A stretch of DNA of 20,740 bases from a virus, in IMG/VR virus record IMGVR_UViG_3300042397_002826, positions 1-20,740 of that record, one strand, 5' to 3'. Both the position numbers and the translations under genes were made by a program. How positions within the stretch are numbered: position 1 is the stretch's first letter; the number at the start of each line of letters is the position of its first letter. Positions 8,528-18,313 of the stretch are shown one piece after another. The notes below the pieces were generated by a model that worked only from the letters and a program-made list of their open reading frames with translations, had not been told where the DNA came from and did not search any database.

Positions 8528-8563
8528 CACAAATATACGAAAAATAACTGAAACTACCAAATC
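8528..8563 (-). promoter_or_regulatory. Bacteroidota-type promoter (copy 2)
   Basis: Read on the minus strand: TTTGGTAG at the -33 position, with TTTG 20 bp from a perfect TATATTTG -7 box. It starts within a few bases of the polymerase stop codon, and the -7 box ends about 40 nt before the sliding-clamp ATG. The inner spacer ATTTTTCGTAT is identical to the other copies. It should give the clamp, loader and dut genes their own transcript. Confidence 0.8.
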
Positions 8564-11088: not shown

Positions 11089-12204
11089 CTATGCTTTTAA
11101 TTTTATGTTTAATTGTTGTAACATCTTACCTTCGTTTTCTGAAAGTTCTAATGCTCTTTCTATACTTTTAATCTCTCTATCCTTTCTATAATTATCGTCA
11201 TCCAATATTTTATCTAACATTTCAAACAGGTCTTTTTTAAATTTAAAAAACAATCCATTTGGTTCTATTTCCTGATAACATAATGATTCTTGATATATCA
11301 TTGGTGTACCATTCATCAAACAATCCGTTGCCGATACACTCCAACCATAATTTGTTTGCCTCATCTGAATACCAACTTTACATTGTTGTAATCTACCATA
11401 GTACTCATGCTTTGGAAGTTTAGTAGCATCAATCCAATTATGTTCCGGCGTACCTTTTAATTGAGGCACCCATACACTAAAATCTTGTCTGCGTTCTCTA
11501 TATTCCTCCATCAATTTAATGAAAGCAGGATAACCTTTGTAAGCTGCTGCTCTATGATTGAATACTATAATATTTCGTTTTTCTTCTGAAGCTGATTCTA
11601 TTACATTTTGTTTTGGTAATCCCAAATTCCATACCACTAAAATATCATCTAGCTTTTTAACAAACTCGTCATTGAACCAAATCTTAGCTTCTTCTAATAC
11701 TCTATTCTTTTGGTCTTGTGTATTAAGATAACAAGTTTCCATTTGAGATATACCTAATAATTCAATTGGCATCCATCTCCATTTATTCTTTCTATCTTCT
11801 GCATTGCAAGATTTCATTTCCCACCAATGACAATATCCGATTATCTTAGTATCAAATGAATTTTTATATCTACCAACTTGAGGCCAATCCGGTAAATGCG
11901 AATAGATAACATCATATTCTAATGTTTCCAATAACCTATTAAAATCGGGAGGATATGTACGCATTTTAATCATATCGCCCGAGAAGGGTAAGATATGCTG
12001 CTTTACATTTAGTAAATTCAGTTTCTTAACCGGCTCGGGTAATATAATATTCCAAAAGTATTCACCATATTGCTCTAAACCTTTTATATGATTGTAGATA
12101 ACATCTACGAATGAATCCTTTTCTATGTTAGCGGAATTGGTGATATTAGGTATCACCAAAACACGCCTTGCTTCTTTACTCAATTGTCCTTCCCAAAATG
12201 TCAT
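11089..12204 (-). CDS. Divergent GT-B glycosyltransferase
   Basis: A 371-residue protein with the architecture of GT-B glycosyltransferases. The donor-domain opening FNHRAAAYKGYPAF lies at about 215-228, and a terminal donor-site region NYGWSVSATDCLMNGTPMIY at 285-304. The usual E-x7-E pair of GT4 enzymes is not intact: N285 is at the first position and D294 is slightly offset at the second. Catalysis may therefore differ, or the motif is degenerate. No signal peptide or membrane helix is seen. Its start overlaps the stop of the DUF262-HNH gene by one base, and its stop abuts the polymerase ATG. That places a sugar transferase directly within the restriction-like/replication transcript. DNA glycosylation is an attractive but unproven role. 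Confidence 0.75.
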   Translation of the reverse strand: MTFWEGQLSKEARRVLVIPNITNSANIEKDSFVDVIYNHIKGLEQYGEYFWNIILPEPVKKLNLLNVKQHILPFSGDMIKMRTYPPDFNRLLETLEYDVIYSHLPDWPQVGRYKNSFDTKIIGYCHWWEMKSCNAEDRKNKWRWMPIELLGISQMETCYLNTQDQKNRVLEEAKIWFNDEFVKKLDDILVVWNLGLPKQNVIESASEEKRNIIVFNHRAAAYKGYPAFIKLMEEYRERRQDFSVWVPQLKGTPEHNWIDATKLPKHEYYGRLQQCKVGIQMRQTNYGWSVSATDCLMNGTPMIYQESLCYQEIEPNGLFFKFKKDLFEMLDKILDDDNYRKDREIKSIERALELSENEGKMLQQLNIKLKA

Positions 12205-13898
12205 TAATCTATTTTTTTATTATTTCCAAACAACATAGCTGAAACCATACGAATTTCGTCAGGAGTTAAAGCAGTTGTTCTATTATCTGCGTTTAATATA
12301 TCAAGTAAACTTTGTGCCTTAACATACCCAGTAAGTTTACAAACATACTTAACATCATCGATATCACATCCAGCGGATTTATTTCGGTTTACTTCATCAA
12401 TAATCAACTGACCATTATAAACTTCCGTTGGTCCTCCATATGTATATGCTATAATGTGGTCTGCTCTCCAATCTGATTGAGGAACGCTTTTTAAATCTTG
12501 TCCAGTCTTTCTACACTTTCCGTTTTGCTGAGAGTATAATTCATCTCTTTGTTGTTGAGAAAATTCTCTTGGATTTGTATTTTTTTGTTTACCAAATCCC
12601 CAAGATTTAAAATCAAACTCATGTAATAGAGGTAATAGTGTAAACTCCAAATCATCAACACGAGCACCACCATTAAATACAGAACGATACCCATATTCCT
12701 CACCTTTGTTTACAGTCTTCGTAGATTGTCTTTTTACCATAACACCATCCGAACTAATACTTTCATATCTTTGATGCGGATTGTGTTTAAATTTGGTCTT
12801 ACCATTAAGATACGTTATCTTTTCTTTTAACATTTCTAAGAATACATTCTCATCTAATTTGAGAGATTGCCAGTTTTGTAATGGTAACCCAATCTCATAT
12901 ATAAGACAAAATAACTTTTTAATATTACCTTTCTTCCAACTTGTCTTTGTACTTATCTTACCTACCTTTACAATCTTATCAACTAATATTAAAATTGCAT
13001 CCATATCAGCAATAAACTTAACACCTTCAGATGTTGTTAAGAATTCATTGAATGGTTCACTACGATACATTTCTTCCAAAGTAACTGCAGTTGCATCTAA
13101 ACCAGTACATTCTTTTGATGTGAAACCACCCTGTCTCATATATAACATTAATAATGAAACAATTTCATCAGTTTCTCTCTTTGTTGTTTTTAGTGCACAA
13201 TACTTAAGTTTTTGTCCTTCTTTCTCACGAAGAAAAGTTATTGCCTTTGAACTATCCACAGCTCCTCTAACTCTACATATATCTGATACATCTGAATTAA
13301 TGGCGTTTCGTTTATCTGCAGGACTCATATCATGCAAATCATTTAATGTTAAGAATATTTCCTCAGCCTCATCATCGGAAATGTTAGAGTGTATTGTTAA
13401 ATCGAAGTATATACTATCAAGATAGATATCTTCTAATTCTGCGTGGCGCTCAGTTATTGCCGGCCAGCTCATATTACCAATATTATATTCCGTTTCAATA
13501 CCAGTGTTAGTATTTACTAAAGTTATAATCAAATTGTTTGGAGTTTGAATCTTTCCAGTGAAGAATGCCATAATAGTTCTGGTACGATGTCCTCCATCAA
13601 GGATTTCATAGATTCCATCATTATCTCTTAGATGGATTTTTTGGAACGGTCTTAGTTTTAAGATATCCCCAATAAGATGTTGTTGCCAAGCTTCTCCTTC
13701 GTTTCCAACCAAGTCAACATAATGATATGGTCTTTGATACTTTGCGTTAGGATTAATCTTTAAAGTAATCCACTTTTGCTGATACTTTCTGAGTGTCCAG
13801 AATTCGTTGTGAATGTTTGAGTGTTTTTCTGCATACACTCTTTGGAATTGTTGGATTGCGGATTGCCTAAGGGCACCGTCTAGTACTAATGTACTCAT
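12204..13898 (-). CDS. DUF262 + HNH protein, SspE/GmrSD-like restriction enzyme
   Basis: A 564-residue two-domain protein. The N-terminal half has the DUF262 hallmarks: an NAKYQRPYH element at about 51-59 and DGGHR at 101-105, the counterpart of the DGQQR nucleotide-binding motif, followed by TRTIMAFF. The C-terminal part has an HNH nuclease: C462, ADHI with D480 and H481, a GGP turn, N496 and N504 with NRNKSA. DUF262 joined to an HNH-type domain occurs in GmrSD (cuts glucosylated hydroxymethylcytosine DNA) and SspE (senses phosphorothioate DNA), where NTP use and a DNA mark govern cleavage. Here the gene has its own promoter and a long leader. It precedes a glycosyltransferase and the polymerase, and lies next to two Mom-like genes. 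The domain call is strong, the target inferred. Confidence 0.85.
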   Translation of the reverse strand: MSTLVLDGALRQSAIQQFQRVYAEKHSNIHNEFWTLRKYQQKWITLKINPNAKYQRPYHYVDLVGNEGEAWQQHLIGDILKLRPFQKIHLRDNDGIYEILDGGHRTRTIMAFFTGKIQTPNNLIITLVNTNTGIETEYNIGNMSWPAITERHAELEDIYLDSIYFDLTIHSNISDDEAEEIFLTLNDLHDMSPADKRNAINSDVSDICRVRGAVDSSKAITFLREKEGQKLKYCALKTTKRETDEIVSLLMLYMRQGGFTSKECTGLDATAVTLEEMYRSEPFNEFLTTSEGVKFIADMDAILILVDKIVKVGKISTKTSWKKGNIKKLFCLIYEIGLPLQNWQSLKLDENVFLEMLKEKITYLNGKTKFKHNPHQRYESISSDGVMVKRQSTKTVNKGEEYGYRSVFNGGARVDDLEFTLLPLLHEFDFKSWGFGKQKNTNPREFSQQQRDELYSQQNGKCRKTGQDLKSVPQSDWRADHIIAYTYGGPTEVYNGQLIIDEVNRNKSAGCDIDDVKYVCKLTGYVKAQSLLDILNADNRTTALTPDEIRMVSAMLFGNNKKID

Positions 13899-14005: not shown

Positions 14006-14041
14006 CTCAAAGATACGAAAAATATCTGAATCTACCAAAGA
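14006..14041 (-). promoter_or_regulatory. Bacteroidota-type promoter (copy 3)
   Basis: Read on the minus strand: TTTGGTAG at -33, with TTTG exactly 20 bp from a TATCTTTG -7 box, the best match of the four to the Bacteroidota consensus. It lies between the mom-like copy 1 stop and the DUF262-HNH gene, the first promoter of that transcript. The spacer ATTTTTCGTAT is identical to the other copies. Confidence 0.82.
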
Positions 14042-14087: not shown

Positions 14088-14888
14088 TTACCAAAAATTT
14101 GCAGTACCTTCCGGCACTTCGTATGTAGTTAAGTGATGTACTACTTCTGTGTTGTATGAAGCAGTATCTTTTGGATAAGGCCTGATTTCATGCTTTAATC
14201 GTTTCATCAAATCCTTCTTTTCTTTTTTATCTTGCGCAAGTATCTGAACATATCTATGTTTTGGTGGTTCTTCCCTTCTCCAAAACTCTTTATATCCTTG
14301 CTTACCGATTTCCATTTGTAAATGTGCTAAGTTACCACTACCCCACATTGAAAATACAGTCCTACTATGAATCCATTGATATGGGTCTTTGTGTAATGAT
14401 ATACCCCAATTTGGCATCAATGCAATATCCGTAGATAATCCCTGATAAATCCAATTGGTAGCCTGATAGATACCTCCTAAGTGAGCTTGTCCGTTATCGG
14501 CGTATGATAGTAATACTTTAATTGCTTTATCATGTTCCTTTAACCATTTGAAAGATTGTCCTAATGCAAATGATTCAATGTTAGAACCATAACCATCATC
14601 ACAATACAAACGTGTCAATTCTAAAATGTTATCTTTGGTTAATCCTTCACAAATAGAAGTGGATGCTTTTGCTCCAACAGGAAACCCATAGATTAAACAA
14701 CCTATAAGTTTATCACCATCAAAGGTATTAGCATCTTCTGATTTGTAATATATTCCAATTGCATATCTACAAGCTGTCCAAGCATGAGTATAGTGCTTCT
14801 TAACAATAATATCTTTAGCGATACTCTTTGCTATTGGTGCTACATATACTTTGGATGTATCACAATAATTTTTACCTTCTACCTTCAT
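14088..14888 (-). CDS. mom: Mom-like DNA modification protein (copy 1)
   Basis: A 266-residue protein resembling the phage Mu Mom family, GNAT-fold enzymes that convert adenine in DNA to N6-(carbamoylmethyl)adenine and block restriction. Family-type elements: H32-Y33 (KKHYTH), a strand with LIGCLIYG (61-68), ELTRL (90-94), N103-x-E105-S106, SYAD (128-131), H136-x-G138 and YQATNWIYQG (141-150). A basic C-terminal region (KHRYVQIL, then KKEKKDLMKRLKHEIRPYPK) could contact DNA. It is a clear paralogue of the gene at 17343-18113: both begin MKVE-K-YCDTSK and share the C-terminal block. Its start overlaps the upstream small gene by 17 nt. The family call is from memory of its motifs; the exact chemistry of these copies is unknown. 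Confidence 0.8.
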   Translation of the reverse strand: MKVEGKNYCDTSKVYVAPIAKSIAKDIIVKKHYTHAWTACRYAIGIYYKSEDANTFDGDKLIGCLIYGFPVGAKASTSICEGLTKDNILELTRLYCDDGYGSNIESFALGQSFKWLKEHDKAIKVLLSYADNGQAHLGGIYQATNWIYQGLSTDIALMPNWGISLHKDPYQWIHSRTVFSMWGSGNLAHLQMEIGKQGYKEFWRREEPPKHRYVQILAQDKKEKKDLMKRLKHEIRPYPKDTASYNTEVVHHLTTYEVPEGTANFW

Positions 14889-15126
14889 TCTTTTTTGCTT
14901 GTTTTGCTTTTTCTAAAATAGATAAACTTCGTTCAGCCTTTGCTAATTTTTGTCTTTGTTTCAAATCTTTCACATAACCAGCAGGATATTTGTTTTCTAC
15001 TGATATAGGTCCATTTGCGAATTTATCTAAATCATATTTCCAAATTGATTCGCATCCATCATCATCTTTATAAATGTGTTCAAATTTACGTGGTTTATCC
15101 TTAACGTTGGGTTCTACTCTTGCCAT
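14872..15126 (-). CDS. Small charged protein upstream of mom-like copy 1
   Basis: An 84-residue basic protein. The first half has aromatic/acidic content (KFEHIYKDDDGCESIWKYDL) ending in GPISVENKYP, suggestive of a small beta structure. The second half (about residues 52-84) is a long, highly charged helix rich in Lys, Ala and Glu. No catalytic motif is present and I do not recognise a named family. It overlaps the mom-like gene by 17 nt and follows the methyltransferase by 11 nt, so coupled expression is likely. A helper for modification, analogous to Mu com, is possible, but it lacks Com's zinc-binding cysteines. Confidence 0.7.
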   Translation of the reverse strand: MARVEPNVKDKPRKFEHIYKDDDGCESIWKYDLDKFANGPISVENKYPAGYVKDLKQRQKLAKAERSLSILEKAKQAKKNEGRR

Positions 15127-15137
15127 AAAATCAATTT

Positions 15138-16052
15138 TTATCCAAAAAATTCATTTAACTTATTAATAGATTCTATTACATTTTCAGTACAATAATCAGG
15201 TATTACATATTCACCTGGTTTTCTAAATACTAAAACATACTCATGTGTTTTAGGTGCATATCGTTTACATGCTGATTGATATGTTGTAAAATTTGCATAT
15301 GGTGATATATTTTCCATTATTATAATGTCGTGATAATTGAATCCTGCTTTTTTAAATGATTGTATTGTATCACCATGAAAATCAATTAACTTACCACCTT
15401 GTCTAAAATCAGCAACAACCCAAACACAAAATGAACCGTCTTTAGCAACTCTAAAACAATTTTCTGCACATTTACCTACAAACTCCATAAAAGAATCATA
15501 TGTTTCACAATCACTTAATTGCCCCTCAACACTTTCATATTTTTCAATATCGTAGTAAGGAGGACATGTAAAAATTAAATCAGAAAAATTATCAGGAGTT
15601 TCTTTTAATGCCGTACCATCTGATAGATATAAATTTGGATTAATACCTAGTTTTTCAAAATGTTCTAATACTCGTTTATGAGTGTTTGGTGTAATTTCAT
15701 ATCCATAATAATCCCTACCTAATTTATTAGAAACAACTGCTCTTGTTGCTCTCCCAGCAAATGGGTCTACAATACGAGCTCCAGGTAAAGACCAATATCT
15801 AATTATATTTTCAGCCATACCAGCGTGAAACTCTGACATTTTTTGATTTCCAATTTCACCAGTATTTGTGTACCCTGCGCTTGCTTTTCTTATTTCAATT
15901 TCACCATCATCTAAATAAGCATCTTTCCATTTTGCTTTACTTTCTTTTGTAGGTTTGATTATAGATAGAGGTAAAAATCCAAATTGGTCTTTTATTGATA
16001 TATCTTCTCTAACCGGTAGAAATTTATTTTGTTTTCTATTATTTTTAGCCAT
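15138..16052 (-). CDS. DNA methyltransferase (N6-adenine or N4-cytosine)
   Basis: A 304-residue S-adenosylmethionine-dependent DNA methyltransferase. Visible motifs: motif X-like SEFHAGMAENIIRYWS (73-88), motif I DPFAGRATRA (96-105) for SAM binding, motif II region YYGYEI with E119, and catalytic motif IV TCPPYYD (162-168). The order X-I-IV fits a gamma-type amino-methyltransferase with a C-terminal target-recognition region. TCPPY does not by itself separate adenine from cytosine methylation. It starts 4 nt after the HNH endonuclease gene, the arrangement of a type II restriction-modification pair. Like that gene, it is more A/T-rich than the mom-like genes on either side (sample 60-base rows about 27-30% G+C). 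The recognition site is unknown. Confidence 0.9.
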   Translation of the reverse strand: MAKNNRKQNKFLPVREDISIKDQFGFLPLSIIKPTKESKAKWKDAYLDDGEIEIRKASAGYTNTGEIGNQKMSEFHAGMAENIIRYWSLPGARIVDPFAGRATRAVVSNKLGRDYYGYEITPNTHKRVLEHFEKLGINPNLYLSDGTALKETPDNFSDLIFTCPPYYDIEKYESVEGQLSDCETYDSFMEFVGKCAENCFRVAKDGSFCVWVVADFRQGGKLIDFHGDTIQSFKKAGFNYHDIIIMENISPYANFTTYQSACKRYAPKTHEYVLVFRKPGEYVIPDYCTENVIESINKLNEFFG

Positions 16053-16056
16053 ATTA

Positions 16057-17304
16057 TTATTTTATTTTTTTAAGTAATTGTTTATTGTATGGAATAACTT
16101 TTGATTTAACCATTTCTTTATTAATGTGAGAATCATCCTCTAATATAATAACATCACTTGGATTATGTGTATTTATGAAACAAATTCTATCATTAACAAC
16201 ATCAATAATTCTATATTGATTTTTTATTAATTGAGTTGGAAATTTACTATGGTCTCTTTCAGATATTGATAATTTATTCCATTTATTATTAATAACATCA
16301 TTTAATCCATTCATTTGAGTTGCTAATGCATGAGGTAATATATGATGATTCTCCGTAGTCAATTTATCAAGTTCTGATTGATAATATAAAGATTTATCGG
16401 TTGTATTATTTCTAACTGTCTTTGGTGGATTTGTATTATCGGCAAATGTTAAAATAAATTTATATCCGCTATTTTCTTTTTTATACAAGCCAGTGTAAGT
16501 AAGATATTCCGCAAATATGTTATATTTTTCAATTATACCATTGATATTTATTTTATCTTTTTTTCCTAACCATTTTTGTAATCCAGATGGTGAGTATATT
16601 TTTTCTAAAATATTTTTAAATTCAGATAATTTCTCCGCCATTAAAACTCCACTTATACCAATAGCTTTTCTAATTTCTATTGAAAAGTTATGTATTTGCT
16701 CATACTCAAATATTGCATCATCTCCGATACAAAATGCTATTAACCAAAGGTCAAACCAATACAAATATTTAAATGTATTTGTGTGCTGATATACTGCTTC
16801 GTAAAACTCTTTCCAATCATTATCTTTATGAAATCGTTTTCTAACATATTCTTTTCTACAATCTAATAATTTTTCATAATAAATCGTATTTACAGAATCT
16901 GATAATTTTTCTATCTTTTTAGATACAGCTGTTAAATTGAAATAGGTTGGTCCACCTTTTGTATATTTTTTTCTTGTTATCAAACCAAACCTTTCGAATT
17001 CAGGCAAAGTTTGTTTTTTAAATCGTCTTGCCGATGCAGAGTCTCCGACAATTTGTTCTACAAAAGAATTGAATTTAGCATTATCAAATACTTTATCATC
17101 ACTACCAGATGGTTCTTCTGCTTTAGTAGTACCATATACACTCAAATATGCTTTTGTAAACTTTCTAACAGTTTCAATACTCCTAGCATCATTATCCTTT
17201 ATTGGTAGTCTTATGTATTTAGACCCTATATATCCTTTTTCACCATTTGAGTTTGGTAATTCAAATATTGGGTTTATAACTTTTACTATTTTATCCTCTT
17301 TCAA
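16057..17304 (-). CDS. Probable type II restriction endonuclease, HNH type
   Basis: A 415-residue protein with no family I can name. The N-terminal region (about residues 60-135) has a winged-helix look (RRFKKQTLPEFERFGLITRK, then a GGPTYF turn). The C-terminus carries an HNH-like motif: N319-H320-H321-I-L-P324 followed by Asn-rich NGLNDVINNKW and H352. It lies 4 nt upstream of a DNA methyltransferase and under its own promoter, which together suggest a restriction enzyme. The start is TTG: the preceding in-frame codon but one is a stop and no ATG is usable nearby. A TTG start could keep nuclease levels low. Sample rows give only about 17-27% G+C, well below neighbours, pointing to recent acquisition. 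A homing nuclease is the main alternative. Confidence 0.72.
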   Translation of the reverse strand: MKEDKIVKVINPIFELPNSNGEKGYIGSKYIRLPIKDNDARSIETVRKFTKAYLSVYGTTKAEEPSGSDDKVFDNAKFNSFVEQIVGDSASARRFKKQTLPEFERFGLITRKKYTKGGPTYFNLTAVSKKIEKLSDSVNTIYYEKLLDCRKEYVRKRFHKDNDWKEFYEAVYQHTNTFKYLYWFDLWLIAFCIGDDAIFEYEQIHNFSIEIRKAIGISGVLMAEKLSEFKNILEKIYSPSGLQKWLGKKDKININGIIEKYNIFAEYLTYTGLYKKENSGYKFILTFADNTNPPKTVRNNTTDKSLYYQSELDKLTTENHHILPHALATQMNGLNDVINNKWNKLSISERDHSKFPTQLIKNQYRIIDVVNDRICFINTHNPSDVIILEDDSHINKEMVKSKVIPYNKQLLKKIK

Positions 17305-17324
17305 AACTTATTATACTTTATTTA

Positions 17325-17360
17325 TACAAATATACGAAAAATTTATGAGACTACCAAATT
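17325..17360 (-). promoter_or_regulatory. Bacteroidota-type promoter (copy 4)
   Basis: Read on the minus strand: TTTGGTAG at -33, with TTTG 20 bp from TATATTTG. The -33 box lies inside the last codons of the upstream mom-like gene, and the -7 box ends 23 nt before the TTG start of the HNH endonuclease. It is the only promoter seen for the restriction-modification/mom-like copy 1 unit. The spacer ATTTTTCGTAT is again identical. Confidence 0.8.
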
Positions 17361-18113
17361 TATCGGGTCCATTTTATGAACTTCATCGATAATATCTAAC
17401 TCCACCTTTGGGTAGGGAAATACCTCATGTTTAAGCGATTTTAAGAAGGCTTTACGTTCCCTTTTATCTTTGGTTAGAATATACACATATCGGTGCTTAC
17501 GGGGTTCTCTTTTAATCCAGAAAGGGCTTGTAACCATTGTCTGAATTATCTTAGGGTCATTCGTTCCGTACTTCACATAGGATGTACGAGAGTGATGCCA
17601 TTCATCATCTTCACTCCACTTAAAAGACCAACTATCACTCCATCTGATTTTGTTTCCTTGATATATCCAATTGGTAGCTTGGTATATAGTTCCTAAGTGT
17701 CCAGCGTTTGGGTCTGAATATGATATTAGTGCTTTGATACGAGGTACATTAGTTCGTAACCACTCAAAGGATTGTCCAACGAACCAACTCTCAATGTTAG
17801 TACCATATCCATCAAATACAAATAATCTGGTCAATTCCAATACACCATCTCTAGGAAGTAATTCGGAAATTGATGCGCCAGCATTTCTACCAACCGGGTC
17901 ACCATAACAGGCAACACCAACCAATTGTTCGTTTACACCACTAAAAAAATTATGCTCATCTTCGGAAATATAGAACAAGCCAATAGCATAAGATACCTTC
18001 GTCCATATTCCACTGTAGTGATTATTGACAATGATATCTTTTGCTATGTTCTTATTAATTTCTCTAATAGAAAACTTAGAGGTATCGCAATATTGTTTAT
18101 TTTCTACTTTCAT
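17343..18113 (-). CDS. mom: Mom-like DNA modification protein (copy 2)
   Basis: A 256-residue paralogue of copy 1, with the same Mom-type elements at nearly the same places: H32-Y33, a strand with LVGVACYG (64-71), ELTRL (93-97), N106-x-E108-S109, SYSD (131-134, where copy 1 has SYAD), H139 and YQATNWIYQG (144-153). The shared C-terminal block KHRYVYIL plus RERKAFLKSLKHEVFPYPK is present. The two copies differ throughout, more than recent duplicates would. They may modify different sites or use different small groups. Its ATG overlaps the stop of the upstream helix-turn-helix gene (ATGA). Composition is near that of the phage core (sample rows about 37-38% G+C), unlike the adjacent endonuclease gene. 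Confidence 0.8.
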   Translation of the reverse strand: MKVENKQYCDTSKFSIREINKNIAKDIIVNNHYSGIWTKVSYAIGLFYISEDEHNFFSGVNEQLVGVACYGDPVGRNAGASISELLPRDGVLELTRLFVFDGYGTNIESWFVGQSFEWLRTNVPRIKALISYSDPNAGHLGTIYQATNWIYQGNKIRWSDSWSFKWSEDDEWHHSRTSYVKYGTNDPKIIQTMVTSPFWIKREPRKHRYVYILTKDKRERKAFLKSLKHEVFPYPKVELDIIDEVHKMDPINLVVS

Positions 18114-18313
18114 AAGCTACCAGACCAAAATTGATTTAAATGATTCCAAGTTTTACGTTGGATTATCTTTAATACATTTGATGGTGATACCTTATTGTTT
18201 TGGGCAATCACTTTAATATTACGATGACCCATTCTCCATAGGTCTCTAATGATTAAAACTTGCTCATCTGTCAGTTTTGCTGACGGGTGTTGCTGCCCTC
18301 TTAAAATTGCCAT
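18110..18313 (-). CDS. Orphan helix-turn-helix protein
   Basis: A 67-residue protein beginning MAILRGQQHPSAKLTDEQV, then a helix-turn-helix (about residues 15-58: LTDEQVLIIRDL, then GHRNIKVIAQNNKVSPSNVLKII, then RKTWNHL). This is the same module that often forms the C-terminal DNA-reading tail of phage HNH homing nucleases, here without the nuclease part. It may be a stand-alone DNA-binding protein or the remnant of a homing endonuclease. It overlaps mom-like copy 2 by 4 nt (ATGA), so it could regulate that gene or the pair. No frameshift or neighbouring HNH fragment is visible in the 21-nt gap upstream. Confidence 0.72.
   Translation of the reverse strand: MAILRGQQHPSAKLTDEQVLIIRDLWRMGHRNIKVIAQNNKVSPSNVLKIIQRKTWNHLNQFWSGSL

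Follow-up and report, generated by a model that had tools for sequence, protein, structure and literature searches.

The window analysed here is the whole virus record IMGVR_UViG_3300042397_002826 (20,740 bases). The genes of interest all lie on the minus strand and are transcribed in the order HTH67, mom2, HNH-motif protein, methyltransferase, small84, mom1 and GmrSD-like HNH protein. The features of the locus are as follows.

18110-18313, minus strand: HTH67, a 67-aa helix-turn-helix protein with weak MarR/HTH_28 and homing-endonuclease matches
17343-18113, minus strand: mom2, Mom paralogue 2, 256 aa (PF25680, 8bv8, Mom2 clade)
17327-17358, minus strand: promoter-like element TTTG-N20-TATATTTG, overlapping the 3' end of mom2
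16057-17304, minus strand: HNH-motif protein, 415 aa, with an uncertain TTG start; motif seen by eye; contig-specific insertion
15138-16052, minus strand: N6/N4 DNA methyltransferase, 304 aa (PF01555, 1.1e-23; PADLOC MTase_II, 1.6e-33)
14872-15126, minus strand: small84, 84 aa, overlapping the start of mom1; taken from the ORF list and omitted from the initial annotation
14088-14888, minus strand: mom1, Mom paralogue 1, 266 aa (PF25680, 8bv8, Mom1 clade)
14008-14039, minus strand: second promoter-like element, upstream of the GmrSD-like gene
12204-13898, minus strand: GmrSD_N (DUF262)-like and HNH protein, 564 aa (PF03235 at 5.5e-07, just under the curated cut-off; HNH PHROGs)
8530-8561, minus strand: promoter-like element, a near-identical 32-base copy

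The two outer genes had been called Mom-like in the initial annotation on the basis of shared sequence elements (HY, ELTRL, NxES, SYAD/SYSD and YQATNWIYQG), all of which are present, and the profile search proposed there confirms that Mom1 and Mom2 are true Mom-family proteins. They match the Pfam Mom family PF25680 at 2.6e-44 (151.8 bits) and 2.3e-43 (148.7 bits), respectively, against a cut-off of 27.1, and both match PHROG 1384, 'Mom-like DNA modification protein' (E about 1e-46), as well as, at the sequence level, the Mu Mom structure PDB 8bv8, with 22-27% identity to Mu Mom. When AlphaFold models from relatives (pLDDT 84.8 for Mom1 and 86.7 for Mom2) were used in a structure search, 8bv8 was the top hit for both (E 5e-14 and 4e-13) and the next one came at about 1e-4, so that the models have the GNAT fold as in Mu Mom, with other GNATs many orders of magnitude behind. 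Since the title of 8bv8 reads 'Mu protein Mom inactive mutant S124A', S124 (in the 241-aa numbering followed here for Mu Mom) is the essential serine; its equivalents in the alignment are S106 in Mom1 and S109 in Mom2. The HY pair is found at 32-33 in both proteins, and the tyrosine corresponding to Mu Y159 is Y141 in Mom1 and Y144 in Mom2. Mu residues S124, H58, Y59 and Y159 are invariant across 107 distinct Mom1 and 91 distinct Mom2 sequences, and D149 is invariant in Mom2 and kept in 98 of the 107 Mom1; the residues other than S124 we take to be catalytic, their conservation itself being measured. Median dN/dS values of 0.051 (Mom1) and 0.068 (Mom2) indicate strong purifying selection on both. 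The two paralogues thus apparently encode functional, catalytically competent adenine-modifying enzymes, and the idea that one copy is dead is ruled out, since in both the catalytic set is complete and dN/dS is low.

The pair is also conserved. A mom2 query of viral contigs yielded 80 loci, in all of which mom1 follows mom2 where the contig reaches far enough. Because sampling by mom2 favours mom2, a second search was started from mom1; of the 79 distinct loci that extend 1.5 kb or more upstream of mom1, 75 carry mom2 beside it. Sampling based on the DNA polymerase, which is blind to Mom, gave the pair in 20 of 32 loci, mom1 only in 5 and neither in 7, the last class covering only the fetched stretch (one such contig, L302, has two Mom genes elsewhere). 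Long contigs nearly always carry exactly two Mom genes. A large lineage of uncultured T4-like phages has kept the Mom pair as a stable feature throughout, which makes the two-Mom core of the initial annotation firmer than it was there. An obligate pair is nevertheless ruled out by phages carrying mom1 without mom2 (L085, L136, L165 and the L341 group); no locus with mom2 only was seen among the related loci. Additional Mom-family genes were also encountered: a third, distinct one (PF25680 at about 1e-35) lies near a ribonucleotide reductase gene in L388 (3927-4526), which has mom1 and mom2 as well, and in L159 (2018-2647), which has mom1 without mom2, and a very diverged one directly follows a DNA methyltransferase fragment in L323 (2-1034).

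Maximum-likelihood analysis separates Mom1 and Mom2 into two supported, reciprocally monophyletic clades (99/97 and 99/98), which points to an ancient duplication and rules out a recent one. The two proteins of the window are 50% identical across 243 aa, so the earlier description of them as clearly diverged is correct. Phages with mom1 only are scattered at separate places within the Mom1 clade, implying that mom2 has been lost at least three times.

Two Mom genes were not found in any cultured phage: of 50,697 records, the 254 and 313 that matched all have Mom at a single place, so that at the sensitivity used isolates show no such pair, and no publication on paired Mom genes was found in the literature collection searched. 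The cultured PHROG 1384 phages (of Listeria, Enterococcus, Proteus, Microbacterium and Staphylococcus) have proteins of the same family with the same invariant residues, but one Mom place each where the window phage has two. Mom of Mu (NP_050657.1), by which that phage hides its DNA from the defences of bacteria, shares with Mom1 and Mom2 the profile, the GNAT fold and the catalytic Ser/His/Tyr set, whereas Mu has a single Mom and is a different type of phage. The closest named relative, 42-44% identical to both copies, is Mom of Polaribacter phage P12002L (YP_009209713.1), where mom, as in the window, has a methyltransferase gene next to it; P12002L, however, has a single Mom and is a 49-kb phage of another kind, and its methyltransferase is not matched by that of the window at E 1e-3.

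The initial annotation also placed the locus in a T4-like phage, which holds for the replication module: the class B DNA polymerase falls in PHROG 262 and has matches in 2,617 phage records, T4-like ones being numerous among them; the nearest named polymerase is from a Microcystis phage (52%). Genes read from the sequence as sliding clamp, clamp loader, dUTPase, ribonucleotide reductase-like and thioredoxin are found nearby. Homologues of the GmrSD-like protein (23-73% identity) follow mom1 in a minority of relatives, making it a variable neighbour; the protein resembles modification-dependent nucleases and would fit a phage with modified DNA of its own. Three glycosyltransferase-like genes (50-1342, 1352-2734 and 11089-12204) were noted as well, the third, with weak matches in the search, lying between the GmrSD-like gene and the DNA polymerase gene.

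What separates the two mom genes in the window is of another nature. The DNA methyltransferase reported there is upheld by PF01555, but the HNH endonuclease stands only as a motif (NHHILP...NKWNKL...ERDH, read by eye near the C-terminus of the 415-aa protein). The protein is not recognised as an HNH protein by Pfam, PHROG, NCBIfam or PADLOC, even at E values up to 10; a Pfam search with its separate halves gave no family, hits in the PDB were only marginal and off-topic, and no relative was found in viral contigs or in 85,000 genomes. In relatives, TTTCGTATATTTGTA comes after mom2, with small84 immediately behind it; only the nearer relatives have small84 between the two mom genes. In the window, the HNH protein and the methyltransferase are interposed between the TTTCGTATATTTGTA element and small84. 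The slot after mom2 is thus empty in relatives or filled by other cargo, such as a 175-aa ORF and HNH-like, ATP-grasp (RimK-like) and GIY-YIG-like ORFs (names read from the sequences); in L111 a fragment of a related methyltransferase occupies it, at the contig edge. The 175-aa protein (L003:6791-7318, also in L021 and L029) belongs to no Pfam family and has a sequence slightly suggestive of a nuclease. By sequence comparison the HNH-methyltransferase block is a recent cargo insertion, seen in this contig alone.

That the two genes would constitute a working restriction-modification system, as had been annotated, is improbable. They lie 4 nt apart, appear to have been inserted as one block and include a visible HNH-like motif, and fusions of Mom with restriction endonuclease domains have been described in jumbo phages (PMC7824862), where Mom is linked with nuclease genes as in the window. 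Here, however, Mom is unfused, and it is the nucleases that vary and the Mom pair that is constant. None of the related loci fetched contains the block, so a conserved restriction-modification unit flanked by the mom genes is ruled out. The methyltransferase has relatives in other phages at 49-86% identity, including sister phages that lack the HNH protein (74-86%), and none of the relatives found has this HNH protein beside it, so that of the hallmarks of a type II system the methyltransferase is present, but co-inheritance with the candidate endonuclease was not seen. The HNH protein, for its part, is without profile support or relatives, and since GIY-YIG-like and HNH-like ORFs are found as slot cargo, a homing or free-standing nuclease is an equally likely identity for it. 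The methyltransferase is probably an orphan phage enzyme inserted together with the HNH protein. In L085, where a methyltransferase directly follows mom1, it is 86% identical to that of the window, as compared with 74% for mom1 and 61% for HTH67, which suggests lateral movement of the methyltransferase gene.

The association of Mom with a methyltransferase, from which the initial annotation had drawn the idea of layered DNA marks, is unusual for the lineage, since a Mom pair and a PF01555 methyltransferase are seldom found together. In contigs of at least 30 kb (matches above the cut-off, a near-identical trio counted once), PF01555 was found in 2 of 29 contigs with two or more Mom genes as against 7 of 13 without the pair (Fisher p 0.0016), and as against 6 of 8 Mom-less relatives (p 0.0003). 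Because these statistics ignore shared ancestry, and with some of the methyltransferase matches being weak, the exclusion should be taken as a lead and not as proof. PF02086 was found in none of the 42 long contigs, and PF00145 in a single one, the Microcystis phage Mel-JY01, which has no Mom. Individual loci show what replacement may look like: in L136 a methyltransferase stands in place of the missing mom2, in L165 mom2 is missing and a methyltransferase fragment lies upstream, and in L159 the missing mom2 is accompanied by the third Mom gene elsewhere. On the contrary, four related contigs with mom1 only (G032-G035) have no PF01555 match, so loss of Mom2 is not always offset by such a methyltransferase. 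In L356 (8418-9989) and similar relatives without Mom, the gene directly upstream of that for DNA polymerase encodes a protein of 523 aa whose C-terminal domain resembles N6/N4 methyltransferases.

In the window, the end of the HTH67 gene covers the first 4 nt of mom2, and an overlap of 1-19 nt with mom2 or mom1 is found in most loci, shifting to mom1 where mom2 has been lost. From this arrangement HTH67 is a candidate regulator of mom. In Mu, the Com gene likewise overlaps the start of mom, but Com is a zinc finger where a helix-turn-helix protein is found here. An HTH67 profile matched neither Com nor the small ORFs preceding mom in other phages. The parallel is thus one of arrangement and not of homology, and HTH67 would at most work like Com, which PMC6483171 describes as activating translation of mom in Mu.

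Three near-identical 32-base elements, TTTGGTAG..TTCAG..TATTTTTCGTATATTTG, precede the insertion, the GmrSD-like gene and the clamp gene, and similar ones were found in relatives, where the counterpart of the element at 17327-17358 precedes small84-mom1 rather than an insertion. Occurrence of the simple pattern is modestly above chance and that of the extended repeat clearly so. Their TAnnTTTG core is the -7 type of Bacteroidota promoters, and the elements suggest, short of proof, Bacteroidota as the probable host phylum, although the nearest named polymerase comes from a Microcystis phage.

The question then is why a phage would keep two Mom enzymes. Across the family 23 positions are invariant or nearly so and common to Mom1 and Mom2, whereas 25 are fixed differently between the clades, among them T34/S, C40/V and R41/S just past the invariant HY, with others at Mom1 positions 69, 73, 95, 97, 108, 130 and 139 (ranges 69-108 and 130-139). 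Such a pattern would be expected of two specificities or of an asymmetric dimer. We lean, by a modest degree, toward two Mom paralogues that are both active and divide specificity between them, and that would together form an anti-restriction coat exchangeable with methyltransferases. The more elaborate version, in which each genome would bear two chemically or contextually distinct adenine hypermodifications, each covering the gaps of the other, with methyltransferases as interchangeable third players, is more tentative, and we would give it somewhat less than even chances.

It could also be that two equivalent copies merely raise the amount of enzyme, both being intact and conserved at the same core residues, but this is very unlikely given that the clades stay about 50% apart, with 25 fixed differences over about 100 variants each and no sign of homogenisation. 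Another explanation would be a difference in donor between Mom1 and Mom2, with chemically different groups added to adenine. Fixed differences do adjoin the catalytic HY and occur in the core of the fold, GNAT chemistry varies widely (PMC8072286), and the Mom donor is unsettled, as Mom has been described as transferring an acyl group, e.g. glycyl, from CoA (PMC7824862). However, all known active-site invariants are identical in the two proteins and no sequence feature predicts a new donor, which makes a difference in chemistry unlikely. An obligate or preferred heterodimer, in which Mom1 and Mom2 would be different subunits of one enzyme, deserves serious weight because Mom is dimeric in 8bv8 (PMC13232217). 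The Mu Mom crystal has two chains, PHROG 1384 is among the experimentally validated dimers, its dimer being reproduced by AlphaFold-Multimer (PMC13232217), the genes are co-inherited and are adjacent and overlapping in 38 of 98 distinct loci, and the 25 fixed differences could mark an interface instead of a specificity. Nonetheless we consider the heterodimer unlikely, since Mom1 persists in the phages that lack Mom2, and is therefore independent of it, and since the catalytic set is complete in both proteins, whereas many heterodimers have one subunit that is dead.

Under divided specificity, the ancient duplication in the T4-like lineage would have produced Mom1 and Mom2, inherited together since, and each would act on adenines within sequence contexts of its own as the phage genome replicates, so that the restriction sites protected by both together might outnumber those that a single enzyme could cover. 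HTH67 may control the timing of the modification, the part that Com plays for Mu mom. The same protective need would be answered by methyltransferases, which could substitute for Mom2, and the methyltransferase-HNH block would be recent cargo 3' of mom2 using the promoter of small84-mom1. Work on the chemistry and targeting of Mom has dealt mainly with one enzyme, that of Mu, and about 100 variants of each of two co-inherited, long-diverged paralogues, which differ by 25 fixed changes close to an active site that is otherwise invariant, are material from which the determinants of Mom target and donor may be learned. The inverse relation between Mom and methyltransferases, for its part, offers a testable picture of phages swapping DNA disguises.
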